Assembly: GCF_012910905.1 (NCBI RefSeq)
Contig: NZ_WTVN01000020.1
Span: 26,281 to 90,280 of the forward strand
DNA length: 64,000 nucleotides
Direction of reading: 5' to 3'
Source: Aromatoleum toluvorans
GTDB lineage: Bacteria > Pseudomonadota > Gammaproteobacteria > Burkholderiales > Rhodocyclaceae
Shown here piece by piece: positions 1 to 17,559 of this stretch. The notes under the pieces were generated by a model. It was not told the DNA's origin, ran no database searches, and saw nothing but the letters and a program-made list of their open reading frames with translations. Within the stretch, counting starts at the first letter, position 1; every line of letters begins with the position of its first letter. The translations under genes and the position numbers were made by a program.

Positions 1-255
1 GATCAGCGCAGCCGCTTCGCCCGCGTCTAGCAAATGATCGGCGGCGAACTGCTCCGTGCCGGTCACCTCGACGCACTCGAACAATCCGGACTCGCGCGCT
101 GAGAGAATGGCCCGAGCGCCGGGGCGCTGCGGATGGACGGTGCATTCGGCGAACACTTCGCCCGGCACCAGCACTTCGTCGAAATGGCGCGGCAGCAACC
201 GGAGCAGATCCAGTCGCGCCAATGCGATCAGCGGTCCGCTATCGGCGACGACCAT
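1..255 (-). CDS. PIN-domain toxin of a type II toxin-antitoxin module (partial, runs off left edge)
   Basis: Eighty-five codons are visible and the 3' end is outside the window. The protein opens MVVADSGPLIALARLDLL, the DUF3368-type PIN start with the first catalytic aspartate at residue 5 and a glutamate at residue 37 in VFAECT. PIN proteins are metal-dependent RNases, and as toxins they usually cut tRNA, rRNA or mRNA. The start overlaps the end of the antitoxin gene by 17 bp and has no ribosome-binding site of its own, so translation is probably coupled. The C-terminal acidic residues cannot be checked here, so activity is inferred from the family. Confidence 0.8.
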   Translation of the reverse strand, partial: MVVADSGPLIALARLDLLRLLPRHFDEVLVPGEVFAECTVHPQRPGARAILSARESGLFECVEVTGTEQFAADHLLDAGEAAALI

Positions 256-580
256 GATTCGCGATCACATCGAGCTCATCGTTGAGCTCGTCCGGCGTCT
301 GCTGGACGACCGCGACACCCGCGGCTCCCGTGCGTTCGATCATCTCCTCGATGCCCAGCCCGGCGAACTTCGCGGCCTGCGCCAGCGTCAGCGTGCCCTC
401 GTCGAACAGCTTGATCGCCAGCGACGTCCGCACGCCGCTTTCCAGCAAGGCATCGTCGAAGGGCACGGCAACGAAGACCGGGTTGCCGTGTTTGGTGACG
501 ACGGACAGCTTGCCCGCCTCGGCACCGCGGATCAGCTCCCCGGTGCGCTCGCGCAGGTCGCGGACGGTGAAGGTTTCCAT
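239..580 (-). CDS. Phd-like/UPF0175 antitoxin
   Basis: A 113-residue protein starting METFTVRDLRERTGELI. Residues 1-40 look like the Phd/YefM DNA-binding fold. The rest (LAIKLFDEGTLTLAQAAKFA onward) matches the UPF0175 pattern usually encoded beside DUF3368 PIN toxins. It should bind the toxin and repress its own operon. An ATG 18 bases upstream (598) is in frame, but only the 580 start has a good ribosome-binding site (GGAG six bases upstream). A perfect palindrome lies just ahead of it at 606-619. The pair lies directly downstream of cas6e, where cas1 and cas2 are normally found. Confidence 0.8.
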   Translation of the reverse strand: METFTVRDLRERTGELIRGAEAGKLSVVTKHGNPVFVAVPFDDALLESGVRTSLAIKLFDEGTLTLAQAAKFAGLGIEEMIERTGAAGVAVVQQTPDELNDELDVIANHGRRR

Positions 581-605
581 GGCGGGCTCCGGTCGCATGA
601 TTGTG

Positions 606-619
606 CTATCAAATGATAG
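606..619. promoter_or_regulatory. Palindromic operator candidate of the toxin-antitoxin module
   Basis: CTATCA-AA-TGATAG is a perfect 6-bp inverted repeat with a 2-bp centre, in the 45-bp gap between the cas6e stop and the antitoxin start. Phd-type antitoxins bind such short palindromes at their own promoters. Binding here is inferred from position and symmetry. Confidence 0.45.
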
Positions 620-625
620 AACAAA

Positions 626-1423
626 TCACTCGGCGCGACGGACGAGCAGCAGACCGCAACCGAAGGCTTTGGCCCGGCCTATGCCCGCGACGAGGGCTAG
701 CTGCAATTTTGCAGGGTCGGTCACCTCAACCATTCCCTCGTAGTCCACCGAAGAAAACTGGATTCTTCTTCCCCGATGTTCCAGGCGATGCTGCGTATAA
801 CCTGTCCAGTCGATGCTCGGTTCCAGTTCGCCGCTGAATCGGCTGAGTCTGTCGACGGAGCGCACGCCTGCTTCTCCCAGGCGCTTGGAGATCCATGTTC
901 GCGCCGCATTGTCGAGCGCATCCCATTGGGCCTGCTTGTGTTCGCTCGATCCGGATTCGGGTACGGGATGACGGCGCTTGGTCGCCATCAGCACGTCATG
1001 AAATCGCCGTCGGACGCGCTGAGGCTTCTCTTTCAGACCGGAGAGCGTTCTTTGGGCGTTGTAGCGTGCCAGCTCTGTGGAGCCTACCGCCTCGGCCGTT
1101 GCCTCGGTTGGGTTTGCGCGTAGTCGGAAGTGCAGCCGGTCCCCCGTATGCAGCGCCGGCGCAAAGGGTTTCGAGGCGACGTCCAGCAAGCCCGGTATCG
1201 ACCGTGGCTGGCGCTGCGAGACGACGTAGTATTCGGGCCAGTCGTTCGGGTCTCGCTCGGCACGGAAGACGAAGTCTCGCCGTGCTTCGGCATCGCCGGG
1301 GAACAGACGCCACATCATGGCATGGTCGATATAGGCGTCGCCGCAAGTAAGGCGCAGGAGTTCCCGCCGATCCAGCCCGGCGAGATCCAGGCGTACACGC
1401 GAGAAGTAATGGTGATCGCTCAC
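626..1423 (-). CDS. cas6e: Type I-E CRISPR endoribonuclease Cas6e (CasE)
   Basis: Cas6e cuts pre-crRNA on the 3' side of the repeat hairpin and stays on the crRNA as part of Cascade. The 265-residue protein has Y31 and H34 in AYIDHAMMWRLFPG, spaced like the catalytic tyrosine and histidine of the Thermus enzyme. It ends with the glycine-rich RNA-binding loop GIGRAKAFGCGLLLVRR. It is longer than the E. coli protein (199 residues). Its start overlaps the cas5e stop by four bases (ATGA), making it the last gene of the Cascade operon here. It would have to process both ordinary arrays and the mini-array at 5625-5704. Confidence 0.95.
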   Translation of the reverse strand: MSDHHYFSRVRLDLAGLDRRELLRLTCGDAYIDHAMMWRLFPGDAEARRDFVFRAERDPNDWPEYYVVSQRQPRSIPGLLDVASKPFAPALHTGDRLHFRLRANPTEATAEAVGSTELARYNAQRTLSGLKEKPQRVRRRFHDVLMATKRRHPVPESGSSEHKQAQWDALDNAARTWISKRLGEAGVRSVDRLSRFSGELEPSIDWTGYTQHRLEHRGRRIQFSSVDYEGMVEVTDPAKLQLALVAGIGRAKAFGCGLLLVRRAE

Positions 1424-2199
1424 GAAGCATCCTCCAGCCGCATGAATTCCTGTCTGGGAGAAAACTGCCAGCGACGGCGGGACGTGGGGGTGTCGTGCCG
1501 CGTCAGTGACATGGTCGCGGGGCTATCCGGGGCGAGCGCTTCGACGCCCCATGCTTCGTCCCAGTAGTACCGCGCTTGCCCGCTGCCGAGTTTCAGCCAG
1601 CGTTGTGCGATGTTGCTGGCGCGGGTTGCATCCTTGTCCAGTTCCGGGAACGGCGATGCGTCGAAGGCGTCGAGCGCGGATTTGAGGCTGTCGAATTCGG
1701 CGACTCGCGGCGCGAGCGGCGCCGACAGAGGGCAGGATTTCCGTCCGAGATACAGGGGAAATGCCGGATACCGCAACGCTTCGGTCAGCCGGCCGAGCGA
1801 CCAGGGGGCCTCGGGCGTCGTGCCCACTGCCACGGTGGCGAACGCGTCGCAGCGGTACTCGCGCGCAGACAGCAAAGTGCCGAGCTGCTCGCGAGTCGGC
1901 AGCGCGAGTTCCTGGCGGCGGGTTCGATAGGTCAGCTTCTTCAGTTGCGGGCCTGCTTGAACCGTGTGGTAATCGCGGAGCGGATGACCTGTAGCGTGCA
2001 GTTTGATGCCGAAGCGATAGCCGGCGTTGAGGCGTGCCTGGGCGTCGTCGTCTTCACGGCGCACCCCGAGCGCCGCGCCGAGCAGGCCGAGCAGCGCCGA
2101 GCGCGATGGCTGGCTGGCCGAGTGCCGTGATTCACCGACCGCGATTTCGCCCCAGCTTGCCATCGGCCCGTAGAGCCGGAAGACCAGGTACTCGGCCAT
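1420..2199 (-). CDS. cas5e: Type I-E Cascade subunit Cas5e (CasD)
   Basis: Cas5e caps the 5' handle of the crRNA in Cascade. The 259-residue protein starts MAEYLVFRLYGPMASWGEIA, the typical Cas5e N-terminus, followed by R-HSASQPSRSALLGLLGAALG. The start at 2199 lies two bases after the cas7e stop. A longer frame open to 2286 would extend into cas7e and is not needed. The 8-nt handle it would grip is retained in the first repeat of the mini-CRISPR (ATGGACCG). Confidence 0.95.
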   Translation of the reverse strand: MAEYLVFRLYGPMASWGEIAVGESRHSASQPSRSALLGLLGAALGVRREDDDAQARLNAGYRFGIKLHATGHPLRDYHTVQAGPQLKKLTYRTRRQELALPTREQLGTLLSAREYRCDAFATVAVGTTPEAPWSLGRLTEALRYPAFPLYLGRKSCPLSAPLAPRVAEFDSLKSALDAFDASPFPELDKDATRASNIAQRWLKLGSGQARYYWDEAWGVEALAPDSPATMSLTRHDTPTSRRRWQFSPRQEFMRLEDAS

Positions 2200-2201
2200 G
2201 T

Positions 2202-3239
2202 TCAGGCTCCGGCGACGAAGTCGACCAGTTCGGCCATGCTTCCCTCGCCCGCGAGGACATCGAACTGTTTGTGCGCATCGGCACACGGACCATAGACCTT
2301 GTCCATGTTGTCGCGAACCCTGATCAGTTCAGTGGTAGTCGCGTGGCCGTAGTCCCCGCCGTTGATCGGTTTCAGGAAGGCGAGCGACAGCGATCGCGGT
2401 TGGCGCTGTCCTTTCTCTGCCAGCGCGAAATGAGCGTAGGCGCGCGAGGCGAAGCTGTTCTGCTTGCCGGAGGGGCCGACCGTGAGCGCCGTCTCGGTCA
2501 GTGCGCGCAGTGCCCTCGCAGTCAGGGTCTCGTCGCCGCCCAGATTCTTCAGCAGCTGGTCGCGATCGATGCAGATGTATTGATAGAAAAGGGCCGACGC
2601 GAATCCGGCCTCGCCGACGTGGCCCGCGCCGGTCTCGTCACGCTGGTTGAGGTCGTCGACGGCCGTGAAGTAATCGTCTTCGACGGCCGACGCGTGCACG
2701 CCGAGCGCGTGCGCGACCTGCACCGCCGCTTCTCCGTTGCATTCCGGCCGGTCGGCGATCATGCGGCCGAACATTCCGATGTCTACCGCATATTGCGTGT
2801 GCAGCAGGCCGTCCAGCTCCTCGTCGGTCGGGGGACGTCTCTCGGAAATCAGGGTCCGGCTCAGGGCATTGAGAGTTTCGCGTTCTTCGGGGGAGACGTG
2901 CACCAGGGTTTCGGTTTCGAGCGGGTTGTCTTTCTTCGGTTTGCCGAAGACCGCCGTAATCTTCGCCGCCCAATCCCTGGCGTCGGACTCCTTGATGTCA
3001 CCCGCCACGAGCGCGTTGTAGGTTTCGGCCCCGAGGCGTTTGGTTCTCGTGCCGATGTGGCCGCTCAGCGCCGACTGGAATACGTCCGAGGTACGCCATG
3101 CGCGTTTGAGACTTTGCGACGAGACGCGAAGGCGTTCCGTGCCGCCGACCTTTGCCGTCTTGGGGCGGCCGAGATCGTCCCGATTGAGGTTGGAGGGCGG
3201 ATAGGCGACGAGCAGATGTAGCTGGATGAAACGGGTCAT
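2202..3239 (-). CDS. cas7e: Type I-E Cascade backbone subunit Cas7e (CasC)
   Basis: Cas7e forms the six-copy backbone along the crRNA and flips out every sixth spacer base. The 345-residue protein begins MTRFIQLHLLVAYPPSNLNR and continues RLRVSSQSLKRAWR, the hallmark Cas7e/Csd2 N-terminal motif with the RNA-binding arginines. Its length is close to E. coli CasC (363). It lies 36 bp after cse2 in the same operon. The six-base periodicity it imposes bears on reading the mini-CRISPR target at 5556-5577. Confidence 0.95.
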   Translation of the reverse strand: MTRFIQLHLLVAYPPSNLNRDDLGRPKTAKVGGTERLRVSSQSLKRAWRTSDVFQSALSGHIGTRTKRLGAETYNALVAGDIKESDARDWAAKITAVFGKPKKDNPLETETLVHVSPEERETLNALSRTLISERRPPTDEELDGLLHTQYAVDIGMFGRMIADRPECNGEAAVQVAHALGVHASAVEDDYFTAVDDLNQRDETGAGHVGEAGFASALFYQYICIDRDQLLKNLGGDETLTARALRALTETALTVGPSGKQNSFASRAYAHFALAEKGQRQPRSLSLAFLKPINGGDYGHATTTELIRVRDNMDKVYGPCADAHKQFDVLAGEGSMAELVDFVAGA

Positions 3240-3275
3240 ATGAGTCTCCCTTGCGTATGCAACATGTTCGCGATG

Positions 3276-3896
3276 TCAGGCGAGGTCCTTGTTCGATTCC
3301 AGATGCTTCGCCGCGGTGAAGTACTCGGTCGCCCAGCGAACGCGAAGGCGGTCCTTCGGCTTGCCGGGCTGATGGCCCCGGAATTCCCGCACCCAGGCCA
3401 GAAGATCGTCGGCCAGCATCACAACGTCGGCCTTCTTGCCGACGAGCTGAATCGCCCGTCGGCCGAGCTGAAAGAACTCGGCTTCGGTCGATGCGGTTTG
3501 CAGGCGCGCAAAACGCATGGCGCTCATGTGCGGCCGGTCAGCGTCGTTGGTTTCACCGAGCCGGGCGCCGAAGCTGGATCCATCCTTCAAGTCGGTTTCG
3601 ACATGGGCGAGCAGGCCGGCTACGAGCGCATACGCGGTGGCGTCGCCCTCGACGTAGGGCGTCTGCTTTCCTGCTTCGAGTGGCAGCAGCGCGTGAGCGA
3701 GGCGCACGAAGGCACCGAGCAGCAGTACCTGATCGGGAGTTTCGCAGCGACGCAATTCGGCCCGGTCGCGGCGGGTAAACATCGAGAACCTTTTATTCGG
3801 CTCGGGTTCGTCTTCGCTGTGCGGCTGCAACGCGTACCACCAGTTCCGAACGGTTTCGGCCTGGGCGGGAGACAGGAAGCGCAGTTTTTCGGTCAT
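3276..3896 (-). CDS. cse2: Type I-E Cascade small subunit Cse2 (CasB)
   Basis: Cse2 dimers form the belly of Cascade and stabilise the R-loop. The 206-residue helical protein starts MTEKLRFLSPAQAETVRNWW and has the family's RRDRAELRRCETPDQVLLL segment. It is somewhat longer than E. coli CasB (160). Its ATG overlaps the cse1 stop (ATGA), indicating translational coupling within the operon driven from the promoter at 5525-5553. Confidence 0.93.
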   Translation of the reverse strand: MTEKLRFLSPAQAETVRNWWYALQPHSEDEPEPNKRFSMFTRRDRAELRRCETPDQVLLLGAFVRLAHALLPLEAGKQTPYVEGDATAYALVAGLLAHVETDLKDGSSFGARLGETNDADRPHMSAMRFARLQTASTEAEFFQLGRRAIQLVGKKADVVMLADDLLAWVREFRGHQPGKPKDRLRVRWATEYFTAAKHLESNKDLA

Positions 3897-5488
3897 GCCG
3901 GCTCCTTCAGCTGTTCATTCACGAATTTCCACATCGCTCTCATCGGCTTGGCAGCGTTGAGCCACTTCGCCAGGTCGGCACGCGCCCTCACCGTTCGTTC
4001 GATGTCCCAGTCCTTTTCGTATTCGCCCGTCACCCAATCGTCGAACAGGTCGAGGGCAGTCTTCCGCACCGCACGCAGCCACGCGCGCTGCGTTGAAGCG
4101 AGAGGTACGGGCTCCAGACCTTCCGGCAGCGTCAGTGCGTCGAGGGCGCGGTAGAAGGTTGTCTCCGACGCCTGCCAGAAACTTTGTCCGATGGCCGGCT
4201 CATCCTTGAGATCGCCGGGGCGATCGGCCCAAGCCTTCTTCACATGTCCGGAAAGCAGCTTTGCCGCTTCTACCGCGACATCGAGCAGGTCGCGAACGTG
4301 GTGTCGGAACTCATTCTCACGGCCGCCTGGAGGCGAGTGGACCGGAAGCGTCGCGTCGTACCAGCAACGGGCTTTCATGTTGTCCATGTCGTACCCCGAA
4401 ACCCACAAACGCGGCTCGGGGCCGGGCGGGAGCAGGTCGCGTTTTTCCGTCAGGTAATGACGAACCACGCGTGCCGATTCGGGTTGGCGGTCGGCGTTGC
4501 CCATGACCAATCCGAGCCAGTGGCGATAGCCGATCCCGCCCTTCTGCCCCTTCATCGAGAGCGGCAGTTCCTTGTCTTTCGGATCGTGGTAGTACGGGGT
4601 CAGCGGGTGCTCCCAGCCGAGATAGTTGATGCCGTAGTTTCGGGTTCGGTAGCCGGTCAGCAGGCGTTCGGATGCTATTCCGCAGATATCGCAGTGGCCG
4701 GCGCGCACGCGCGTCCAGTCGAGGCGGATACGCCGCGGCATGCTCCAGTAAGCCTGCAACGGGTGGGCATCGTCGGGTGTAGTCTGCCCGTCCTTCCGTT
4801 CGCTGGTCCGCGTCGGGGCCAGCCACGGCAGGATGTCCGATCGCGCCTGGCCCGTGCAGGAACCGTTCAGTTGGGCGATCTTGTTCCGCGGGAGGACATT
4901 CAGCCACAGGCGGTGCCACAGGCTGGGTGGCGTTCCGTCGATTGCGGAGGGTACGAGGAGACAGGTCAGCGGTCCGCCTCCCCGGAGGGATACCCGGTGA
5001 CCGACGCCGCCAGAGGGCGCGTTAATTTGCAGGGCGTATAGCGCGATTGCTGCGCAAGCGGGACACATGGCTTCGACGCGATCCCGCTTGTTGAAGAAAT
5101 CGAGGTTGTCCCGAATGGTCTTGTCACCCGGGGCGTCGATGAGCAGTGAGGCGATCGGCTTTTCTTCGCCGTTGGGCAAGTCGAGATCCTGCATGAAGGC
5201 AGGGCCGTCGCCGTCGAGCACGAACGCATCGCGCCACGGAGCGAACGCAGCTTTCAGCGCGTTCTCGTCAGGAGGCGATTCCCAGTACTCCAGCCATTCG
5301 TCTTCGTCTTCCGGTGCGAAGGTGGTTTGCAGGAGGCCGATGAGAAACTGGTAGAGCGCGGAACGGAAGTCGGGACGGGCGGCAACGATGTCAATGAGGT
5401 CCGGGCGCGCGATAGCTGTGGGCGAATGACCCTCCGCTTTCTCGGTGCGGTCCAAGAGCGGCAAGAGATTCAGCTCAATGAGTGTCAT
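3893..5488 (-). CDS. cse1: Type I-E Cascade large subunit Cse1 (Cas8e/CasA)
   Basis: Cse1 recognises the PAM and recruits Cas3. The 531-residue protein starts MTLIELNLLPLLDRTEK. It carries the CPAC (about residue 142) and CDIC cysteine pairs and the glycine-rich GGVGHRVSLRGGGPLTCLL loop region of the family. A GAGG ribosome-binding site sits six bases before the ATG. It is the first gene of the cse1-cse2-cas7e-cas5e-cas6e operon and has its own promoter. The short match to the mini-CRISPR spacer lies immediately upstream of that promoter. Confidence 0.95.
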   Translation of the reverse strand: MTLIELNLLPLLDRTEKAEGHSPTAIARPDLIDIVAARPDFRSALYQFLIGLLQTTFAPEDEDEWLEYWESPPDENALKAAFAPWRDAFVLDGDGPAFMQDLDLPNGEEKPIASLLIDAPGDKTIRDNLDFFNKRDRVEAMCPACAAIALYALQINAPSGGVGHRVSLRGGGPLTCLLVPSAIDGTPPSLWHRLWLNVLPRNKIAQLNGSCTGQARSDILPWLAPTRTSERKDGQTTPDDAHPLQAYWSMPRRIRLDWTRVRAGHCDICGIASERLLTGYRTRNYGINYLGWEHPLTPYYHDPKDKELPLSMKGQKGGIGYRHWLGLVMGNADRQPESARVVRHYLTEKRDLLPPGPEPRLWVSGYDMDNMKARCWYDATLPVHSPPGGRENEFRHHVRDLLDVAVEAAKLLSGHVKKAWADRPGDLKDEPAIGQSFWQASETTFYRALDALTLPEGLEPVPLASTQRAWLRAVRKTALDLFDDWVTGEYEKDWDIERTVRARADLAKWLNAAKPMRAMWKFVNEQLKEPA

Positions 5489-5524
5489 CGGCGACCTCGA
5501 ATGTTATGTCGTAACGATAGCTGC

Positions 5525-5553
5525 ATCGTATTCGTTTGGGTTATGCGAGTCAA
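5525..5553 (-). promoter_or_regulatory. Sigma-70 promoter of the cse1 (Cascade) operon
   Basis: On the minus strand TTGACT (5553-5548) and TACGAT (5530-5525) are separated by exactly 17 bp. This predicts transcription starting near 5518 and a leader of about 30 bases before the cse1 ATG. It is the best-matching promoter in the cas3-cse1 gap, and shows that Cascade expression need not depend on read-through from cas3. Confidence 0.65.
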
Positions 5554-5555
5554 CT

Positions 5556-5580
5556 TCACGTACACAGACTCATCAAGTTT
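5556..5580 (-). promoter_or_regulatory. Partial protospacer for the mini-CRISPR guide, abutting the cse1 -35 box
   Basis: Minus-strand bases 5577-5567 read CTTGATGAGTC. The spacer of the mini-CRISPR begins CTTGAAGAGTC, so only position 6 differs. Over the full 22 bases 16 match, with mismatches at positions 6, 12, 14, 15, 18 and 22. Positions 6, 12 and 18 are bases that Cascade leaves unpaired. The flanking PAM is AAA (5580-5578), an AA-type PAM. The site ends three bases from the -35 hexamer, so bound Cascade should block RNA polymerase. The mismatched distal half would disfavour Cas3 cleavage. Confidence 0.65.
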
Positions 5581-5585
5581 AATTT

Positions 5586-5614
5586 TTGTGGATTCGCCGA
5601 TCCGATGCTACAGT
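5586..5614 (+). promoter_or_regulatory. Promoter candidate for the mini-CRISPR guide RNA
   Basis: TTGTGG (5586-5591) and an extended -10, TGC-TACAGT (5606-5614), are spaced by 17 bp. The predicted start is near 5621, four bases before the first degenerate repeat. It is divergent from the cse1 promoter, and the proposed Cascade binding site lies between the two. The -35 is weak, while the extended -10 TG compensates. Confidence 0.45.
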
Positions 5615-5624
5615 CGTATGTCCA

Positions 5625-5704
5625 TTTGTTCCCCTCTTATTGGGGATGGACCGCTTGAAGAGTCGGGTTAAGTGGGAGTTCCCCACGTTCGTGGGGACGG
5701 CATA
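5625..5704 (+). CRISPR. Two-repeat degenerate mini-CRISPR, candidate Cas-regulating guide (CreR/CreA-like)
   Basis: First repeat-like unit, 5625-5653: TTCCCC, a 7-base centre, GGGG, then ATGGACCG, which resembles the 8-nt type I-E 5' handle. Its inner stem is eroded and one base is missing. The spacer, 5654-5675, is 22 bases against the usual 32. The second unit, 5676-5704, begins GAGTTCCCCACGTTCGTGG with a clean 6-bp stem (5681-5686 with 5691-5696), but its handle portion (CGGCATA) has decayed. Each unit keeps only the half needed to make one guide. Known CreA and CreR guides of other CRISPR types show this pattern of repeat decay. The spacer seed matches the cse1 promoter region. Confidence 0.75.
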
Positions 5705-5721
5705 GGCAGTGCCTTCGGCAA

Positions 5722-5750
5722 ACCGGACCTCGTTCGCTGCGAGGTCCGGT
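5722..5750. terminator. Strong hairpin between cas3 and the mini-CRISPR
   Basis: ACCGGACCTCG (5722-5732) pairs perfectly with CGAGGTCCGGT (5740-5750) across a 7-base loop. Neither side has a long T tract (minus strand: TTTG), so termination may be partial or factor-assisted. It lies 24 bp after the cas3 stop and 18 bp after the mini-CRISPR, so it could end both converging transcripts. Confidence 0.5.
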
Positions 5751-5773
5751 CTCCCGGATCGATCGTGCGAGGC

Positions 5774-8503
5774 TCATTTTTCGGCTCGTTTCGTCTCGAG
5801 GCCCAGACGGGCGTCGTAGTGCACTTCCACTTTTTCTCCTTTCAGATTCAGCCCCTCCGCATGTCCGACTTCGCCGTCGCACTCCACCGGCAGGATGTCG
5901 GCGTATTTCAGGAAGCGATGCGTCTGCTTCAGCGCCTCGATTCCACTTCCGAAACGGGCGATCCATTCGCTGGCAAGGCAGTCGAGCCGTCGTGCGGGCA
6001 CCTTCACTGCACTCGCCGCCCAGGGGTGGGCGTGTCCGGCCGCCCACGGCCGCAATCCGCTGGCGTCTGCCACTGCTAACACGAATTCGCGGTCCTCGTC
6101 GCCGAGACGCGTCGGCTTGTCTTCCTCGCGATCCCAGCGGCCGGCTTCCTGGCAGTAGCCTTGGCCGAAATCGAGGGTGTTCGTGTTCGCGAGGGTTCGG
6201 TCGCCGATGGCTTCGCCCTGCTTTTTCAACGATGCGTCTTGCAGGCCCGGCGGTATGTCGAGTTCGGCGTCCGGCCCGTACACGGCTTCGATCAGCGTTC
6301 GGGCGCCTTCCGGCATGACGATGGCGCCGGTTGTCGCGAGGATTCGTTGCGTCAGCCATAGACGGCCGGTATCGGCATACACCCGCGATGCGCGCGGAAA
6401 GGGGCCGCGGTGCCAGTCGGCGGCGGGGTCGGCGTCGAATTCCGGGGCCAGAACGATGAGCTCCGGCGCCGGTCGCCCTTCGATGTCGGACGGATTTCCC
6501 GATGCGTCGCGGGTATGCCGGTGCAGACGGCCGGCGCGCTGGATCAGGAGATCGACCGGCGCGAGATCCGAAATCATGACGTCCGCGTCGCAATCGACCG
6601 ACTGCTCCATGACTTGCGATGAGACCACGATTCGGGCGTGACGGGAGTCGCTGTCGGAGTCCTTTCCGAGCACGTCGAGTACGTGGTCCTCGATCACGAG
6701 CCGGTCGGCGAGGGCGTAGCGGCTATGGAAGAGTGTCAGACGCGCGACGTCGATGCCCTCTGTTTGCCGCAAGCGTTCCCAGGCGTCGCGGGCATCGTCC
6801 ACGGTGTTGCGAATCCACACAACACATTGTCCGGCCGCCGCCGCACCGCGAATGCGGCGAATGACCTCGTCAAGGTCATGCAGAAACCGCACCTGGACCC
6901 GACGTGCGACTTCCGGCCTGGTACCGACTGGAGTGCGCGAAACTCCACCTTCATGGACATGGGTGACGAGAGGATAAGGCGCCGCTTCTTCCTCCCCGTC
7001 TTCGCAGGATGTGCGAAGGCCGCGCCGGAATGCGCCGACCAAGATACTGCGGAGCTCCGCAGGCAAGGTGGCGGAGAGGAGGACGGCGCTGCCGCCTTGG
7101 CGTGCGTGCTGTTCGAGGAGGACCTGGAGAAGCCGTCCGGTGTAAGCGTCATAGGCATGGACTTCATCCGCCACCAGTACCTTGCCTTGCAGGCCGAGCA
7201 GTCGCAACGACTGGTGCTGCGCCGGCAGGGCCGCGAGGAGCGCCTGATCGAGCGTGCCGACGCCGACATTGGCCAGCAGCGCTTTCTTGTTCGAGTCGGC
7301 GATCCATGCGGTGCAAAGCGCGCTGGCCGTGGCCTCACGGCTGTCGTAATCGCGGTCGGCCGGCTGGACCGGAAGGATGCTGGCGCTGAAGTCATCGACC
7401 AGCTCGCGTGCCCCGTGGGCCAGTACGAGTGACGGAGCCGGACGAGGACGGAAGAAACGGCGGTAGACGGTGCCGACCCTACGGTACATCTGGTTAGACG
7501 TCGCCATTGTCGGCAGTCCGAAATACAGGCCGCTCCCTTGGCCGCTTGTCATCAACCGGTGTGCGAAGATCAGCGCCGCCTCGGTCTTGCCGGCCCCGGT
7601 GACGTCTTCCAGGAGGATCAGCTGAGGACCGCGGGCGAGCGGCGTTTCGGCCGCAAACTGCTGCAAGGGGGTGGGCGGAGTCAGGTAGCTGAACAACGCT
7701 TGGGCCGATGCGAAAGGAGCCACTTGGGCCAGATTGAGACCGATCTGTTCAAGCGCCTTTTCTGCTTGCGGAAGGGCATGGTCGTGCCAGTAACGTTCAA
7801 GCGGAAGCGGTTCGGCAAGATACGGGAAGCAGGTTTGACTCGAACCGACCCAATCCGAAAGGACTGCGAAACCCGCCAACTGCCAGGATGCATCGTACAG
7901 CGCCTGCTTGAGCGAGCCGTCCGGTTCCGGTAGCCCCTCTGGTAGAAGGAATTCGGCAAGGTCGGCGACGAAACGGGCTGCAGCGACGAGGTCTTCCTCG
8001 TGGAAGTAGAAATCGGGTTCGATCGGCAATGTTCCGTCGGTCTCCCGGGGCGGGACGCCATGATGGCCGGTGGTGGCGCGCAACCACGTCAGCCACGCCG
8101 AGTTCTTCGGTGCAGGCAGACGCGGTAGGGCTATCTGCTGCCGAATCCGCGATTTCCACGCAACCCAGCCGAGCGTGTCGTGACGTATGCCGTTGCCGTA
8201 GCGATAGCGGGGGTTCGGGGAGACCAGCGTAGCGTTGGCGAAGCTCACCTGATTCTGAAAGCCGCGCGCAAATTTTCCGAGATCGTGGAGCGCAAGGAAG
8301 AACACGGCCAAGGCGTCGTGTTGATCCGGCTCGAGTTGTGTGGTCGCGAACCAACGGTCGAGGATGATTCGCTGTTTGCGTAGCAGTACTGCGCCGACGG
8401 CCGCCACATCCAGGCAGTGATACGGCAGCAAGTGATATCCGGCCCCGTCTCCGTCCTGCGGTCGCGCCTTGCCCCAGTACCGAAAGTATTCCGGATCGCT
8501 CAT
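5774..8503 (-). CDS. cas3: CRISPR-associated helicase/nuclease Cas3 (type I-E)
   Basis: Cas3 unwinds and degrades DNA marked by Cascade. The 909-residue protein has an N-terminal HD nuclease (H29 in PYHCLDVA; H73-D74 in ALHDLGKF) and an SF2 helicase. The helicase shows Walker A VTGAGKTEAALIFAHRL near residue 305, DEVH in VADEVHAYD near 446, LLSATLP, and motif VI IQRAGRLHRH. All catalytic motifs appear intact, and the length matches the family (about 890). It is separated from cse1 by 285 bp with a hairpin and a separate cse1 promoter, and follows the WYL regulator by 49 bp. Confidence 0.96.
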   Translation of the reverse strand: MSDPEYFRYWGKARPQDGDGAGYHLLPYHCLDVAAVGAVLLRKQRIILDRWFATTQLEPDQHDALAVFFLALHDLGKFARGFQNQVSFANATLVSPNPRYRYGNGIRHDTLGWVAWKSRIRQQIALPRLPAPKNSAWLTWLRATTGHHGVPPRETDGTLPIEPDFYFHEEDLVAAARFVADLAEFLLPEGLPEPDGSLKQALYDASWQLAGFAVLSDWVGSSQTCFPYLAEPLPLERYWHDHALPQAEKALEQIGLNLAQVAPFASAQALFSYLTPPTPLQQFAAETPLARGPQLILLEDVTGAGKTEAALIFAHRLMTSGQGSGLYFGLPTMATSNQMYRRVGTVYRRFFRPRPAPSLVLAHGARELVDDFSASILPVQPADRDYDSREATASALCTAWIADSNKKALLANVGVGTLDQALLAALPAQHQSLRLLGLQGKVLVADEVHAYDAYTGRLLQVLLEQHARQGGSAVLLSATLPAELRSILVGAFRRGLRTSCEDGEEEAAPYPLVTHVHEGGVSRTPVGTRPEVARRVQVRFLHDLDEVIRRIRGAAAAGQCVVWIRNTVDDARDAWERLRQTEGIDVARLTLFHSRYALADRLVIEDHVLDVLGKDSDSDSRHARIVVSSQVMEQSVDCDADVMISDLAPVDLLIQRAGRLHRHTRDASGNPSDIEGRPAPELIVLAPEFDADPAADWHRGPFPRASRVYADTGRLWLTQRILATTGAIVMPEGARTLIEAVYGPDAELDIPPGLQDASLKKQGEAIGDRTLANTNTLDFGQGYCQEAGRWDREEDKPTRLGDEDREFVLAVADASGLRPWAAGHAHPWAASAVKVPARRLDCLASEWIARFGSGIEALKQTHRFLKYADILPVECDGEVGHAEGLNLKGEKVEVHYDARLGLETKRAEK

Positions 8504-8552
8504 CGGGCCCGTCCCTCAATCTCGTTGGCGTCCATTGTCGGACTTGCCGGGC

Positions 8553-9554
8553 TCACCGGATGAGCCTCTCGCGATCATCCTTTTTGTATTTCTCCATCAT
8601 CCCTGCCACCTCCGCCGCCACCACCCGCCGCAACCCCTCCGGCCCCAGCACCTCGCAATGCGTCCCGTGCTTCAGCACATCCATCATCAGTTCCCGGTGA
8701 TCGGCATACGGCACTTCGAGCACGTAGCTGCCATCCGCCTCGAATGCGCCGCGCTGCTGAGGGTGCCAGTGTTCGGTCGCGACCCAGCGTGCCCGTTCCG
8801 CCGAGAAGCGCAGCCGCGCCCACTGCAATTCATTGCCGGCGAAGATGCCGTAACCGGGGCCGAGGACGGTGTCGAGGGTCTGGTTGGGAATGTCTTTCGC
8901 TACGGTGTCGAGGAGTTCGACCTGACGGATGCTGTCGACGGCGAAGTTGCGCAGTGCGCCGCGCAGGTGGCACCAGGCGTCGAGGTACCAGTTTTCGCGG
9001 TAATGGACGAGGCGTTGCGGCGAGATTTCGCGCGTCGTCTCGGCGTCGCGGCCGCGGGCGTAGTAGCGGATGGCGAGGCGCTTGCGGCGCAGCAGTGCGG
9101 AGCCGATGTTCTCGAAGTGGGCGAGCTTGAGGCTGCGCTTGCCGATGCCGACGATCAGCACGCGGCGGCGGATTTCGTCGGCGGGATGGTCGGTGGCGCC
9201 CAACAGCTTGTTGAGGCGGGCAACGAGCGGCTGCACGTGCGGGGCGAGGAGGCCGCCGGGGTCGAGGTTGGCGAGGAGATGCTGCATCGTCAGCAGCGCG
9301 TGGATTTCCTTGTCGGAGAACCACAGGCCGGGCAGTTCGTACTGCGCGCCGCTGGTCAGGCGAGGATCGAGACGGTAGCCGCCGAGCTCGGGGTCCCACG
9401 CGATCGGGATGTTCATGACATTGCGCAGGAAGGCGATGTCGCGCTTGAGGGTGGCCGGGGAGACCTCGAGCGTTTCCAGCAGCATGCGGCGGCTCACGGA
9501 GCGCCGTTCGTCGAGGAACTTGCGGATGCGGATGATGCGGTCGGTCTGGCTCAC
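8553..9554 (-). CDS. WYL-domain transcriptional regulator upstream of cas3
   Basis: A 333-residue protein with an N-terminal winged helix (RRMLLETLEVSPATLKRDIAF) and a WYL ligand-binding domain (IRYYARGRDAETTREISPQRL, then RENWYLDAWCHLRGALRNF). A GTG at 9554 has a GAGG site six bases upstream. The longer TTG reading from 9581 would overlap a possible -10 (TATGAT, 9586-9581), so 9554 is preferred. WYL proteins are recurrent regulators of CRISPR-Cas and other defence loci. The 49-bp gap to cas3 suggests co-transcription and a role in controlling cas3 or the whole locus. Confidence 0.85.
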   Translation of the reverse strand: MSQTDRIIRIRKFLDERRSVSRRMLLETLEVSPATLKRDIAFLRNVMNIPIAWDPELGGYRLDPRLTSGAQYELPGLWFSDKEIHALLTMQHLLANLDPGGLLAPHVQPLVARLNKLLGATDHPADEIRRRVLIVGIGKRSLKLAHFENIGSALLRRKRLAIRYYARGRDAETTREISPQRLVHYRENWYLDAWCHLRGALRNFAVDSIRQVELLDTVAKDIPNQTLDTVLGPGYGIFAGNELQWARLRFSAERARWVATEHWHPQQRGAFEADGSYVLEVPYADHRELMMDVLKHGTHCEVLGPEGLRRVVAAEVAGMMEKYKKDDRERLIR

Positions 9555-9673
9555 TGCAGCCTCGGGGGTGACGTGACGCAATCATAGCGATCACGCCCCC
9601 CGCGAGGCGGTGAAGAATGCCCTTGTCTTGGTTGAACGGCTGCGAGCGGCGCAGCGCGCGGTTCGCTATCCGC

Positions 9674-10483
9674 TCAGGGCTCGGTCTTTCCCAGCCGTGC
9701 CGAAATCGCCTTCGCGCACGCGCGCAGCTTCGTCGCCACCGCGCCGTCCCATGCCGGATCGAAGCTCGCGGCGGGGCCCATCGCGGTGATCGCCAGGGCG
9801 AGGTGGCCGTTATGGTCGAAAACCGGGGCGGTGAAGGCGTTGATGCCGGGGATCGGCTTGCCGAGGGCGCGGGCGAGGCGCTCGCGGCGGATCTCGGCGA
9901 ACTCGGCTTCGAGCTGTTCGCGCGTGAGGGCCTGGCGGGCGAATTCGTCCTCAATGAGGGCGGTCGTCTGGCGTGCGGGGAGGAAGGCGGCGAAGGTGCG
10001 GCCGGTGGCGGAGGTGAGGAGGTCCATGACCGTGCCGACGCGCATGTTCACATGCACCTGCCGGCTGCATTCCTCGATGCTGACGATGGTCGGGCCGTGG
10101 TTGCCCCATACGGCGACCGCGACGTTCTGCTGGATCTCGTCCGAGAGCCGTGCTGCCTCGGGCGTCGCGACGCGCAGCGGGTTCACGCCGTGCAGCGCCG
10201 ACAGGCCCATCTGCAGCGCGAAGGCGCCCAGCCCGTAGCGGCCGGTCACCGGGTCCTGCTCGATGAGGCCGAGCTTGCCGAAGCTCACGAGGTAGGGGTG
10301 GGCCTTGGCCGGCGGCATGCCCGCCTCGCGGGCGAGGTCCTTGAGGATCATCGGCGCATCGTGACGGACCAGCGCCTGCAGTAGTGCGCCGCCGACTTCG
10401 ATCGACTGGATGCCGCGCCGGTCGCCGCTCTTCCCGCTCGGGCGCTCTTCGAGTGTTTCGTTGTCCAATCTGTTGTCTCCCAT
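9674..10483 (-). CDS. IclR-family transcriptional regulator
   Basis: Reading from the ATG at 10483 gives 269 residues. The N-terminal helix-turn-helix contains GIQSIEVGGALLQALVRHDA and MILKDLAREAGMPPAKAHPY. The C-terminal IclR effector domain includes SIEECSRQVHVNMRVGTVMD and a GINAFTAPVFDHNGHLALAI segment. It is transcribed divergently from the flavin hydroxylase operon, whose promoter carries two dyads, so it is probably that operon's regulator. The phenolic effector is unknown. An in-frame ATG at 10543 would add a poorly conserved tail and lies close to the divergent promoter. Confidence 0.9.
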   Translation of the reverse strand: MGDNRLDNETLEERPSGKSGDRRGIQSIEVGGALLQALVRHDAPMILKDLAREAGMPPAKAHPYLVSFGKLGLIEQDPVTGRYGLGAFALQMGLSALHGVNPLRVATPEAARLSDEIQQNVAVAVWGNHGPTIVSIEECSRQVHVNMRVGTVMDLLTSATGRTFAAFLPARQTTALIEDEFARQALTREQLEAEFAEIRRERLARALGKPIPGINAFTAPVFDHNGHLALAITAMGPAASFDPAWDGAVATKLRACAKAISARLGKTEP

Positions 10484-10526
10484 GAGGGCGAATCTTAGCA
10501 GCTGTGGGGGCGCTGCATTCTGCGTG

Positions 10527-10551
10527 CAATTCAACGATAGCAAATGAATTG
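10527..10551. promoter_or_regulatory. Inverted repeat, candidate IclR operator
   Basis: CAATTCA (10527-10533) and TGAATTG (10545-10551) form a 7-bp dyad with an 11-bp spacer. The right arm overlaps the -35 of the promoter at 10549-10577. A second perfect dyad, GGATGA-T-TCATCC, lies at 10574-10586 over the -10 and start region. Both are placed to control the hydroxylase operon. Confidence 0.45.
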
Positions 10552-10577
10552 ACGATTAACAAATAAGCATCTAGGAT
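10549..10577 (+). promoter_or_regulatory. Promoter of the flavin hydroxylase operon
   Basis: TTGACG (10549-10554) and TAGGAT (10572-10577) are separated by exactly 17 bp. The predicted start is near 10584, giving a leader of about 98 bases with a GGAGGAGAGG ribosome-binding site before the GTG start at 10682. Confidence 0.55.
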
Positions 10578-10681
10578 GATTCATCCCTGCGCGTTGCAGG
10601 ACGGATGCGATAGAAAAACCACCGGGGACACGCCCGACAGAAGGCGGCGCCGGCAGATGCGACATCGAGGAGGAGAGGCCC

Positions 10682-12349
10682 GTGCTGAGCTCGTACCAGT
10701 ACCCGAAGTTCGAGTACCGCCGCCCGCCGGAGATTGCCGAACGACGCGACGGACGCCATCCGGTGGTGGTCGTCGGCGCCGGTCCCGTGGGGCTCGCGGC
10801 GGCGATCGATCTCGCGATCCACGGCGTGCCGGTGGTGCTGCTCGACAACGACGACACGGTGTCGATCGGTTCGCGCGGCGTGTGCTACGCGAAGCGTGCG
10901 CTGGAAATCATGGACCGTCTCGGCTGCGCCGAGGAGATGGTACGGAAGGGCGTGTCGTGGAACGTCGGCCGCACCTTCTTCCGCGAGCAGGAGGTGTTCA
11001 ACTTCAACCTCTGTCCCGAGCCGGACCACCACCGCCCGGGCATGATCAACCTGCAGCAGTACTACCTCGAGGAATACCTCGTGCGCCGCGCGCAGGCCTT
11101 GCCGAACATCGACCTGCGCTGGAAGAACAACGTGATCGCCGTGACCGATCACGGCGAGCGCGTCAGCCTGCGCGTCGAGACGCCCGACGGCGCCTATGGC
11201 ATCGACACCGACTGGCTGGTCGTTGCCGACGGTGCGCGCAGTCCGATCCGCCACATGATGGGGCTCGACATCGAAGGCAGGATCTTCATGGACCGCTTCC
11301 TGATCGCCGACGTCGTGATGAAGGCGGACTACCCGACCGAGCGCTGGTTCTGGTTCGACCCGCCCTTCCACCCGAACCAGTCGGTGCTGCTGCACCGCCA
11401 GGCCGACAACGTGTGGCGCATCGACTTCCAGCTCGGCTGGAACGTCGACCCGGAGGAAGAGAAGAAGCCCGAGAAGGTGATCCCGCGCATCCGGGCGATG
11501 CTCGGCGAGCAGCGCGAGTTCGAGCTCGAATGGGTCAGCGTCTATACCTTCCAGTGCCGCCGCATGCACGAATTCCGCCACGGGCGGCTGCTCTTCACCG
11601 GCGACGCCGCGCACCAGGTTTCGCCCTTCGGCGCGCGCGGCGCGAACTCCGGCATCCAGGACAGCGACAACCTCGTGTGGAAGCTCAAGCTCGTGCTGGA
11701 CGGCAGGGCGCCGGCGCGGCTCCTCGACACCTACTCCGAGGAGCGCGTCGTCGCCGCCGACGAGAACATCATGAACTCGACGCGTTCGACCGATTTCATC
11801 ACGCCGAAGAGCGCGACCAGCCGGACCTTCCGCAACGCCGTGCTGGGGCTCGCGAAGGACTACCCCTTCGCGCGCGCGCTGGTGAATTCGGGGCGGCTGT
11901 CGGTGCCGAGTTTCCTCACCGCTTCGCGCCTCAACACGCCCGACGCGGAAGCCTTCGCCGGCAACATGGTGCCCGGCGCGCCGATGGACGACGCGCCGGT
12001 CGAGAGCGCGGGCGGCGAGCAGTGGCTGCTGCAGGCGGCGGGCAACCGCTTCCAGCTGCTGTACTGCATGCCGGACGCGGCGGATGTCGATGTCGCCACC
12101 GCCACGGCATTCGCGGCGCTCGCCGCAGGTGCGATTGCGGTCGAGATCCTGGTTGTCGCCGAGCGGGGCACGGCGCCGGGCGGGCTGAAGACGCTGCTCG
12201 ACGCGAAGGGGCGCATCCGCGAGCGCTACGACCTCAAGCCCGGCACGACCTACCTGATCCGCCCCGACCAGCACGTCGCCGCGCGCTGGCGCGGCTTCGA
12301 CGTCACCGCGGTGCGCGCCGCCCTGGCGCGCGCGACCTGCAATGCCTGA
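10682..12349 (+). CDS. FAD-dependent aromatic hydroxylase, MhaA/MhpA-like
   Basis: A 555-residue flavoprotein monooxygenase. It has the FAD dinucleotide fold VVVVGAGPVGLAAAIDLA near residue 35, the mid-chain DG motif VVADGARSPIRHMMG, and GDAAHQVSPFGARGANSGI, which contacts the FAD ribityl chain. It should hydroxylate a phenolic acid using NAD(P)H and O2. The following small protein and maleylacetoacetate isomerase suggest 3-hydroxyphenylacetate 6-hydroxylase (MhaA of Pseudomonas putida, which forms homogentisate). A 3-hydroxyphenylpropionate or hydroxybenzoate hydroxylase is possible. Start is GTG after a strong ribosome-binding site. Confidence 0.85.
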   Translation: MLSSYQYPKFEYRRPPEIAERRDGRHPVVVVGAGPVGLAAAIDLAIHGVPVVLLDNDDTVSIGSRGVCYAKRALEIMDRLGCAEEMVRKGVSWNVGRTFFREQEVFNFNLCPEPDHHRPGMINLQQYYLEEYLVRRAQALPNIDLRWKNNVIAVTDHGERVSLRVETPDGAYGIDTDWLVVADGARSPIRHMMGLDIEGRIFMDRFLIADVVMKADYPTERWFWFDPPFHPNQSVLLHRQADNVWRIDFQLGWNVDPEEEKKPEKVIPRIRAMLGEQREFELEWVSVYTFQCRRMHEFRHGRLLFTGDAAHQVSPFGARGANSGIQDSDNLVWKLKLVLDGRAPARLLDTYSEERVVAADENIMNSTRSTDFITPKSATSRTFRNAVLGLAKDYPFARALVNSGRLSVPSFLTASRLNTPDAEAFAGNMVPGAPMDDAPVESAGGEQWLLQAAGNRFQLLYCMPDAADVDVATATAFAALAAGAIAVEILVVAERGTAPGGLKTLLDAKGRIRERYDLKPGTTYLIRPDQHVAARWRGFDVTAVRAALARATCNA

Positions 12350-12361
12350 AGGACTGCAGCC

Positions 12362-12586
12362 ATGAGCCTCAACACCGACCCCAACTTCTTCACCCCCGGC
12401 AAGCGCTATTTCCGCAGCTTTTCGCCCGGCGACGACTTCTACGAGGCGCTGATCGACACGCACCGCGACCTCACCGACGAACAGAGCGCGATGGTCAATG
12501 CGCGCCTGATCCTGCTGCTGGCGAACCACATCGGCGACATCTCGGTGCTGCGCGAGGCGATGCGGGTCGCCCGCGAGGGGGTGTGA
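12362..12586 (+). CDS. Small DUF2783 protein, possible hydroxylase coupling partner (MhaB-like)
   Basis: A 74-residue protein, MSLNTDPNFFTPGKRYFRSF onward, matching the DUF2783 pattern of small proteins encoded after flavin hydroxylases. It follows the hydroxylase by 12 bp. In the P. putida MhaAB enzyme a small second protein prevents uncoupled NADH oxidation. I infer the same job here from size and position, and have not aligned the two. Confidence 0.75.
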   Translation: MSLNTDPNFFTPGKRYFRSFSPGDDFYEALIDTHRDLTDEQSAMVNARLILLLANHIGDISVLREAMRVAREGV

Positions 12587-12591
12587 CGGCG

Positions 12592-13236
12592 ATGAAGCTC
12601 TACACCTATTTCCGCAGCTCCGCCGCGTACCGCGTGCGCATCGCCCTCAATCTGAAGGGCCTCCCCTGCGAATCCGTGCCAATCCATCTGGTGAAGGACG
12701 GCGGCCAGCACCGCAAGCCGGAATACCTCGCGCTGAACCCCGCCGGACTCGTGCCCGCGCTCGACGACGACGGCCGGCTGCTGACGCAGTCGCTCGCGAT
12801 CATCGAATACCTCGACGAGACGCATCCCGAGCCGCCGCTGCTGCCCGCCGATGCGCCGGGCCGTGCGCGCGCGCGCGCCCTCGCGCAGGCGATCGCGTGC
12901 GACATCCACCCGCTCAACAACCTGCGCGTGCTGCAATACCTGAAGCACGAGCTGGGCGTCGACGACGCGCACAAGGACGCGTGGTACCGTCACTGGGTCG
13001 AGGTCGGCCTTGCGGCGGTCGAAGCGACGCTCGTGCACGATGCGCGCACCGGCCGCTTCTGCCACGGCGACACGCCCGGCCTCGCGGACTGCTGCCTCGT
13101 GCCGCAGGTGTTCAACGCGCGGCGTTTCGGCGCGAAGCTCGACGGGATGCCGACGATCCTGCGCATCGCGGCCGCGTGCGACGAGCTCGAGGCGTTCCGT
13201 CAGGCCGCGCCCGGCAGGCAACCCGACGCGGAATAG
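12592..13236 (+). CDS. maiA: Maleylacetoacetate isomerase (zeta-class GST)
   Basis: A 214-residue zeta-class glutathione transferase. It opens MKLYTYFRSSAAYRVRIALN, with the SSAAYRVRIAL active-site motif that binds glutathione, followed by NPAGLVPAL and QSLAIIEYLDE. It isomerises maleylacetoacetate to fumarylacetoacetate in the homogentisate pathway. Maleylpyruvate isomerase of the gentisate pathway belongs to the same class and is the main alternative. It starts five bases after the DUF2783 stop, so it is co-translated with the hydroxylase genes. Homogentisate dioxygenase and fumarylacetoacetase are not in the window. Confidence 0.88.
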   Translation: MKLYTYFRSSAAYRVRIALNLKGLPCESVPIHLVKDGGQHRKPEYLALNPAGLVPALDDDGRLLTQSLAIIEYLDETHPEPPLLPADAPGRARARALAQAIACDIHPLNNLRVLQYLKHELGVDDAHKDAWYRHWVEVGLAAVEATLVHDARTGRFCHGDTPGLADCCLVPQVFNARRFGAKLDGMPTILRIAAACDELEAFRQAAPGRQPDAE

Positions 13237-13340
13237 ATGCGCCTGCATATTGGGTGATATCAAATAATATTAAATATGTGGGATCCGCGCCCGGCGCACC
13301 GAGCGCTACGCCCGGGAACCCGTTTTTCTCCAACTGCACG

Positions 13341-14549
13341 ATGAACGCTGCTCCTTCGCTGACGCTCGCCATCCTCGTCACCGCGCTGGTCGCGCTCGGC
13401 CCGCTGTCGACCGACTTCTACCTGCCGGCGCTGCCGGCGATCACGACGGCGCTGGTGACCGACGTCGCGCACACGCAGCTCACGCTGTCGGTCTACCTGT
13501 CCGGCTTCGCGGTCGGGCAACTCGCCTACGGCCCGCTGTCGGACCGCTACGGCCGGCGGCCGGCGCTGCTCTTCGGCATTGCGGTGTACCTCGTCGCGTC
13601 GATCGCCTGCATCTTCGCAGCCTCGATCGAGGCGCTGATCGTCGCCCGCTTCCTGCAGGCGCTTGGCGCCTGTGCGGGGCCGGTGCTCGGGCGGGCGGTC
13701 GTGCGCGACGTCTATGGCCCGCACGACTCCGCGCGCATGCTCTCCTACGTCGGCACCGCGATGGCGCTGGCGCCGCTTGTCGGGCCGATGCTGGGCGGCT
13801 GGCTCACGGTATGGTCGGGCTGGCGCGCGACGTTCGTCTTCCTGGCGGTCTATTCGGCGCTCCTGTGGGGCGCGACTGCGCTCCTGCTGCGCGAGACCAA
13901 TCCCCACCTGAACCCGTCGGCCGGGCGGCCCGCCGAGATGTTGACGAACTTCGCGACGCTGCTGCGCGACCGCCGCTACCGCGGCGTGCTGATGTGCAAC
14001 GCGCTCGCCTACGCGGGCCTCTTCGCCTTCATCTCGGGCGCGTCCTTCGTCTTCATCGGCATGTTCGGCTTCACGCCGCAGGAGATGGGCCTTGCGTTCG
14101 GCCTGATGGTGTCGGGCTACATGTCCGGGACGACGGCTTCCGGCAGGCTGTCGCGCCGCCTCGGGCCGGAGCGCCTGATGCGCAACGGCGCGCTGCTCGG
14201 CGTCGCGGCCGGAGGCACGATGCTGGGCCTCGCGCTCGGCGGCGTGCACCACCCGCTCGCGGTAATGCTGCCGATGTGGTTCTCGGCCTGCTCGATCGGC
14301 CTCGTGATGCCCAACGCCGCCGCGATCGGCCTGGCGCCCTATCCGCACATGGCCGGCTCCGCGGCCTCGCTGATGGGCTGCTCGCAGATGGGACTCGCGG
14401 CGCTCGCAGGCGTGTTCGTCGGCCATTCGCTCGCCGGCTCGGTGGTGCCGATGGCGTTCGTGATCGCCGCCACCGCCCTCGGCAGCCTCGCGAGCTACGT
14501 GTTCTGGGTACGGCGTCCCGCGCCGGCAGTCTGTGCCGGTGAGAGCTGA
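13341..14549 (+). CDS. Bcr/CflA-family MFS efflux transporter
   Basis: A 402-residue protein with about 12 hydrophobic segments. The MFS signature GPLSDRYGRRPALLFG lies between helices 2 and 3, and LGACAGPVLGRAVVRDVYG is typical of the Bcr/CflA drug-resistance family. The N-terminal STDFYLPALPAI is diagnostic for Bcr/CflA. The 104-bp gap from maiA contains an AT-rich stretch (13246-13278) with no clear promoter. It may export aromatic acids or drugs. The ATG at 13341 has no evident ribosome-binding site, while the frame stays open far upstream. Confidence 0.88.
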   Translation: MNAAPSLTLAILVTALVALGPLSTDFYLPALPAITTALVTDVAHTQLTLSVYLSGFAVGQLAYGPLSDRYGRRPALLFGIAVYLVASIACIFAASIEALIVARFLQALGACAGPVLGRAVVRDVYGPHDSARMLSYVGTAMALAPLVGPMLGGWLTVWSGWRATFVFLAVYSALLWGATALLLRETNPHLNPSAGRPAEMLTNFATLLRDRRYRGVLMCNALAYAGLFAFISGASFVFIGMFGFTPQEMGLAFGLMVSGYMSGTTASGRLSRRLGPERLMRNGALLGVAAGGTMLGLALGGVHHPLAVMLPMWFSACSIGLVMPNAAAIGLAPYPHMAGSAASLMGCSQMGLAALAGVFVGHSLAGSVVPMAFVIAATALGSLASYVFWVRRPAPAVCAGES

Positions 14550-14565
14550 GCCCCGGCCGTCGCGC

Positions 14566-14901: not shown

Positions 14902-14912
14902 GGTTGCCGTCC

Positions 14913-15470: not shown

Positions 15471-15597
15471 CGCGCCTCTCCTGCTGTCGTTCAAAAGGAA
15501 CGAATTCTACCGGAGGGTTTGCCCTGCGTCCTTGCGTTGGACCGGCCCGGCGCCGTCGCGTTGCACGGCGCAACACGCGCCCGCCGGCCGCGCGGCG

Positions 15598-16295: not shown

Positions 16296-16298
16296 GGC

Positions 16299-17527: not shown

Positions 17528-17559
17528 TCGGCCGGATAACCCAGAACTGGATGTAAAGC

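Follow-up and report, generated by a model that had tools for sequence, protein, structure and literature searches.

The gap between cas3 and cas8e in the type I-E CRISPR-cas locus of Aromatoleum toluvorans contains a miniature CRISPR unit that, judged from its sequence, is very probably a CreR-type gene, the guide of which would be loaded into Cascade and repress the cascade operon with no recruitment of Cas3. Genes of this kind are already known, including in type I-E, and the unit appears to be a newly found, well-supported example. A CRISPR oddity thereby becomes a testable circuit in which guide, target and promoter are named to the base. The stretch of DNA analysed, referred to below as the window, is 64,000 nucleotides long.

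Organization of the cas locus

According to the gene annotation, the window contains a type I-E cas locus on its minus strand, with the following genes.

5774..8503, minus strand: cas3
3893..5488, minus strand: cas8e (cse1; TIGR02547), the operon's leading gene, downstream of the predicted target promoter
626..3896, minus strand: the remaining Cascade genes cse2, cas7, cas5 and cas6e

The cas3-cas8e gap is 285 bp long and holds the mini-CRISPR unit on the plus strand, antisense to the cas genes. cas1 and the long CRISPR array are located on the same contig, past the edge of the window. A pattern search of the whole genome for array repeats (up to 3 mismatches) gave 109 plus-strand matches, from which 102 full repeats were read; these 102 pattern-fitting repeats define the canonical array repeat of the genome, GCGTTCCCCACGGGCGTGGGGATGAACCG, and vary at the last base only. 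Phage matches to the array spacers, sought for reading the PAM, were not found. An Rfam search of window positions 1-20000 returned nothing at 5489-5773 and one sub-threshold match far from the gap. A Phd/UPF0175-like antitoxin and a DUF3368 (PIN-like) protein are encoded between cas6e and cas1 (window 239-598 and L125 9054-9536, both on the minus strand); a toxin-antitoxin-like pair is thus found inside the cas locus.

Two half-repeats around a 22-nt guide

An earlier note on this DNA had described two type I-E repeat-like units, opposite in direction to the cas genes, around a 22-nt spacer between cas3 and cse1, and this arrangement was confirmed at 5625-5704.

5625..5653, plus strand: psiR1, first degenerate repeat, with the 5' handle at 5646-5653
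5654..5675, plus strand: guide (spacer) of 22 nt, placed by the guide/target scan
5676..5704, plus strand: psiR2, second degenerate repeat, stem-loop retained and handle gone
5646..5696, plus strand: predicted mature guide RNA of 51 nt (8-nt handle, 22-nt guide and 21-nt 3' stem-loop), assuming a Cas6e cut at the stem base
5714..5758, no strand assigned: strong hairpin (z -5.0) located where cas3 and the guide gene converge; its core stem has 12 bp (5722-5733/5739-5750)

The unit is not a canonical array. Its two full repeats are 9 and 8 edits away from the 29-nt array repeat, and its guide is 22 nt long, compared with the 32-nt spacers of a canonical array. An edit distance of 9 or less is reached at 52 end positions on both strands of this GC-rich window, and single-repeat similarity was dropped as evidence since edit distance alone does not pick out either unit. 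The ordered pair of halves, defined as a handle half with at least 11/12 matches followed at 15-40 nt by a stem half with at least 19/22, occurs once in the window (at 22-nt spacing) and in none of 20 simulated windows.

The two repeats have retained different parts. psiR1 keeps its final 12 nt (GGGGATGGACCG, 11/12 against the array repeat), including the eight-base handle ATGGACCG, which reads ATGAACCG in the array, and psiR2 keeps its initial 22 nt (GAGTTCCCCACGTTCGTGGGGA, 19/22). The predicted fold of psiR2 has a 7-bp stem and -12.7 kcal/mol, compared with -12.8 kcal/mol for the array repeat, whereas that of psiR1 is weak (-8.7 kcal/mol, 5-bp stem, 7-nt loop). The statement in the earlier note that the first unit keeps the handle and the second the stem-loop therefore holds, and its proposal of a selective decay preserving the function of a CreA- or CreR-like guide is supported; haloarchaeal creA has the same pattern according to excerpts of PMC9458426. 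Folding predictions for the 84-nt transcript show no psiR1 hairpin, and for the 51-nt product they pair the 5' end of the guide with the guide's own 3' end; both folds point to a possible hindrance to processing or loading. The hairpin at 5714-5758 is possibly the shared transcript end of cas3 and the guide gene. It has no T-run, and the tool scan reports no terminator.

A target beside the predicted cas8e promoter

The earlier note named no target for the spacer. We found one on the minus strand, beside the predicted promoter of cas8e.

5556..5577, minus strand: target (protospacer), 16/22 matches to the guide, 10/10 at positions 1-5 and 7-11
5578..5580, minus strand: PAM-side trinucleotide AAA
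5525..5553, minus strand: predicted cas8e promoter TTGACT-17-TACGAT, the sole promoter-like site in a tool scan of 5440-5790
5555..5583, plus strand: possible guide-RNA promoter TTCACG-17-TTTAAT, overlying the target; best antisense-strand score, absent from the tool scan report
5586..5614, plus strand: weak promoter of the earlier note, TTGTGG-17-TACAGT, 7/12 consensus matches by our own count

The target CTTGATGAGTCTGTGTACGTGA (minus strand, 5577-5556) faces the guide CTTGAAGAGTCGGGTTAAGTGG, with matches at positions 1-5, 7-11, 13, 16, 17 and 19-21 and mismatches at positions 6, 12, 14, 15, 18 and 22. Positions 6, 12 and 18 are the bases that are flipped out in Cascade. Among approximately 128,000 placements in the window, this one ranks at the top on both scores. 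In 4000 shuffles of the gap, none reached 16 of the 19 non-flipped positions (the maximum was 14) and one reached a 10/10 seed. The sequence AANCTTGANGAGTC, which comprises the seed and the AA flank, occurs only once in the 4.8-Mb genome, at the target site.

The target sits 2 bp upstream of the predicted -35 box of cas8e, in the UP-element zone (roughly -38 to -59 relative to the predicted start). It is separated from the cas8e start by 68 nt, and a search of this leader for Shine-Dalgarno-led ORFs of 20-75 codons found none. On the guide strand, the tool scan found no promoter above its threshold in 5440-5790. The promoter-like element that the earlier note placed at 5586-5614 is indeed there, but it is weak and absent from the tool scan report.

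Guide-target pairs in other Cas8e loci

Other Cas8e loci were scanned for a handle on the antisense strand followed by a 20-nt guide with at least 9/10 seed matches (positions 1-5 and 7-11) to a site with an AA flank in the same gap. The first set consisted of 94 loci (80 + 13 + 1), of which 3 were dropped with less than 200 nt upstream and 91 were used, the window included. The second set consisted of 39 loci, 36 of them usable, and includes near-copies of first-set loci (L128 of L058 and L129 of L075). Handle, guide and target were found together in 33/91 gaps of the first set (window included), compared with 3/455 in cross-gap controls, 1/91 with a reversed handle and 4/91 with the handle on the cas strand. 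The second set gave 12/36 positive gaps, two of which (L144 and L152) are one place, compared with 3/180 across gaps and 0/36 in each of the reversed-handle and wrong-strand controls. Guide-target pairs are thus present in the cas3-cas8e gap of about one third of the Cas8e loci sampled. At the scan thresholds no match was obtained in 58/91 gaps of the first set, 21 of which are less than 100 nt long, nor in 24/36 of the second. The guide sequences differ among loci and each fits its own gap, with 31 distinct guide starts among the 33. A search for handle, guide, seed and AA flank needs no repeat similarity, and could be extended to every type I-E locus as a way of telling regulators and toxin guards apart.

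The scan itself selects for the seed and the AA flank, which leaves the third PAM base and positions 13, 14 and 6 as independent signals. The PAM trinucleotide is AAG in 29 of the 33 loci, AAA in 3 (window included) and AAC in 1; position 13 is matched in 30/33, position 14 is matched in 28/33 and position 6 is mismatched in 28/33. Behind the guide, all 33 loci have a hairpin with 5 bp or more, a count made with no control. We also scored promoters with weights of our own. The top-scoring cas-strand promoter overlies the target or is at most 10 nt away from it in 26/33 loci, where random placement would give 6.5; the top antisense promoter is likewise on or near it in 22/33. The distance from handle to hairpin is 24-26 nt in 11 of the 33 loci, 35-38 nt in 19 and 30 nt in 3. 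The two larger groups would imply guide lengths of about 20-22 and 32-34 nt, which are some 12 nt, or two Cas7 steps, apart.

The arrangements closest to that of the window are those of Pseudomonas lopnurensis (L033) and Stutzerimonas stutzeri (L037), with a cas-strand target 71 and 65 nt from cas8e, respectively, and with other guide sequences that fit their own targets. By eye, L034, a relative of L033, has retained both half-repeats and seems to have lost the target stretch, which would make it a natural target deletion. Also by eye, the gap of L037 reads like the start of a Phd-like antitoxin and that of L035 like a PIN-like ORF; protein toxin-antitoxin genes may often land beside such guides. 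An earlier survey based on hairpins (two-unit gaps in 28/91; own seed of at least 9 in 23/28, cross 62/2520) was replaced by the guide-target scan. In L075 and L088 its first handle was a false one, and it had missed L037, L052, L053, L077, L091, L095, L100 and L118. L034, L036 and L097, which were part of it, have no target with a seed of at least 9 and an AA flank and are uncounted in the guide-target scan.

No unit was seen in L113, the closest locus of the same family with DNA found (59% Cas8e identity), where the gap is 150 nt and contains other palindromes, nor in L032 (56% identity), where it is 50 nt; the gap of L039 is 57 nt. Among 17 genomes of the same genus, a close Cas8e was found only in the window's own, with one other match at 28%. 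Close Cas8e relatives at 79-87% come from metagenomes and are known here without their DNA. The comparison of related type I-E gaps proposed in the earlier note was borne out over wider kin, where half-repeats with targets in their own gap recur (33/91 and 12/36), but the unit is missing from the 59% relative in the same family.

Short ORFs between target and cas8e

Leader length differs widely among the 44 guide-target loci. The distance from target to cas8e is 65-105 nt in 12 loci and 124-129 nt in 6, with no short ORF in either group. It is at least 130 nt in 26 loci, 18 of which have a Shine-Dalgarno-led ORF of 20-75 codons, where the labels use Shine-Dalgarno and length only, with no control, longer leaders give more chance ORFs and several cases are doubtful. 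Under stricter settings, in first-set gaps of at least 180 nt, a hydrophobic ORF is present on the cas strand in 12 gaps and on the other strand in 1. Several of the short ORF products share a pattern like NSFSPxPxAVIxLALVLAIIxALKM. For 8 products tried, Pfam gave no family above cut-off, and a homologue search with one product (L049) found none.

Upstream of cas8e, short ORFs (36-64 codons) whose products have a single predicted membrane span and the pattern ..SPxPxAVIxLALVLAIIxALKM are present in L059, which is a methanotroph locus with a long leader, and in L079, L053, L049, L090, L044, L042, L050, L063 and L066. In the first five of these the ORF is located between the guide's target and cas8e; in L042, L044, L050, L063 and L066 the guide-target scan found no pair. 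The ORFs with the shared pattern are candidates for Cascade-repressed toxins. Other short ORFs, cationic or hydrophobic and without the shared pattern, occupy the same place in L058, L095, L109, L087 and L100. By analogy with the Citrobacter case described below, we infer that the short ORFs would encode toxins.

On a Cas8e tree of 43 rows built by a quick method, the state without room for an ORF requires 10 changes, of which starred branches force at least 8. Its clustering does not exceed that of shuffled labels, 192/500 of which gave a value as low. In this tree L049, L079 and L090 were set to the ORF-bearing state by hand although the Shine-Dalgarno and length scan gave none, L060, L094 and L111 were kept as long, and L128 was omitted, having the same guide and ORF as L058. 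The scattering of these changes suggests repeated swapping between regulator and toxin guard. We therefore tentatively suggest, at somewhat less than even chance, that the type I-E cas3-cas8e gap is a switchable slot, in which a guide circuit governs either cas8e alone (CreR) or first a membrane or cationic peptide acting as a Cascade-repressed toxin (CreTA), and that lineages have swapped between the two many times. If this is true, the window represents the toxin-free state, and L041, a partial row that is nearest to it in the tree with 64% over 351 columns, the state that bears an ORF.

Proposed mechanism and alternative readings

As a CreR-type gene, the guide gene would be transcribed and its RNA cut by Cas6e after both stems, giving the 51-nt RNA (8 + 22 + 21). 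Cascade loaded with this RNA would bind the target through the seed at positions 1-5 and 7-11. From there, some 38-59 bases ahead of the predicted start, it would block RNA polymerase at the -35/UP region, so that less of cas8e-cas6e is made. We propose that the interrupted pairing past position 11 would spare the target from cleavage. Repression would drop once Cascade is drawn off by array crRNAs or anti-CRISPR proteins, by which the cas genes are proposed to rise on demand. The circuit likely acts as a thermostat by which immunity is kept at a low setting, and since the possible guide promoter at 5555-5583 overlies the target, it may restrict the production of its guide as well. One point against the CreR reading is the PAM, AAA being the rarer type compared with AAG in 29/33 loci.

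The guide could alternatively be a CreA antitoxin restraining a toxin in the gap, either a small RNA or a short ORF, with the cell dependent on Cascade. The gap, the strand order and the target position are the same as in the type I-E CreTA of Citrobacter rodentium, as far as excerpts of PMC12055562 describe it, and short ORFs do occur in the leaders of at least 130 nt in other guide-target loci (18/26 among the 44). We nevertheless regard this as unlikely for the window, whose 68-nt leader has no Shine-Dalgarno-led ORF of 20-75 codons; on the guide strand, inspection of 5584-5653 by eye showed 17-codon ORFs only, with no Shine-Dalgarno sequence and running into psiR1 and the guide. No toxin ORF is thus found under the targeted promoter within 5489-5653, a test that reaches ORFs and not a toxic RNA without one.

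It is very improbable that the unit is the decayed end of an old array, functionless today. Divergence from the array repeat is seen in both units, neither of which stands out singly, but the decay spares precisely the parts that a guide RNA requires. A relic would be expected neither to have a spacer that matches the next promoter region with a 10/10 seed nor to have counterparts in other loci whose guides fit their own targets. That the guide acts mainly on its own promoter at 5555-5583, leaving cas8e little affected, is scarcely credible: the best antisense-strand promoter overlies the target in the window and is on or near it in 22/33 loci, but the tool scan reports the cas-strand promoter only, and in 26/33 loci the target has the top-scoring cas-strand promoter nearby.

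Comparison with known systems

The earlier note had drawn its likeness to CreA and CreR from other CRISPR types; the likeness stands, but the kind is known for type I-E as well (excerpts of PMC13131331 and PMC12055562). In haloarchaeal creA, psiR1 retains the Cas5-binding handle and psiR2 has largely lost the Cas5-binding bases, according to excerpts of PMC9458426, and the CreA seed consists of nucleotides 1-5 and 7-11. As excerpts of PMC8501985 and PMC9458426 present it, haloarchaeal type I-B CreTA resembles the window unit in that psiR1 keeps the 5' handle and psiR2 the 3' handle and in its 1-5/7-11 seed; it differs in that it represses an RNA toxin, its Cas6 reads no repeat hairpin and it belongs to another subtype. 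For E. coli Cascade, excerpts of PMC5904413 report binding on seeds down to 5 bp with AAG, more matches at positions 7-9 at non-AAG sites, and a requirement of extensive pairing for interference.

Citrobacter rodentium, in the excerpted account of PMC12055562, has a type I-E CreTA in the cas3-casA gap, with a target overlapping the UP element of the toxin promoter. It resembles the window in having its guide gene on the opposite strand of the same gap and its target on the UP element of the gap promoter. It differs in its translated 96-bp toxin ORF downstream of the promoter, of which the window has none, and in its PAM, which is ATG there and AAA in the window.

CreRs (cas-regulating RNAs; Liu et al. 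2023, Cell Host Microbe) are known here through excerpts of PMC13131331, PMC12948488 and PMC12737573. They have been reported for types I-B, I-E and V-A (PMC13131331), and in the logic described in PMC12737573 the repressor Cascade is drawn off by array crRNAs or anti-CRISPR proteins. Like the CreRs in these excerpts, the window unit is a mini-CRISPR at a cas locus with partial complementarity to a cas promoter and no toxin. It is a crRNA-like gene that has two degenerate repeats and lies apart from the array, next to the cas genes; it has partial seed complementarity at the predicted cas operon promoter beside a PAM, albeit AAA and not AAG; and no toxin gene (ORF) lies under the targeted promoter. 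Among the sequence features tested no difference from CreR was found, the published type I-E CreRs being compared by their excerpted descriptions only. Since each testable feature of a CreR is present and the toxin ORF of CreTA is absent, the window unit very probably belongs with CreR, a known kind.
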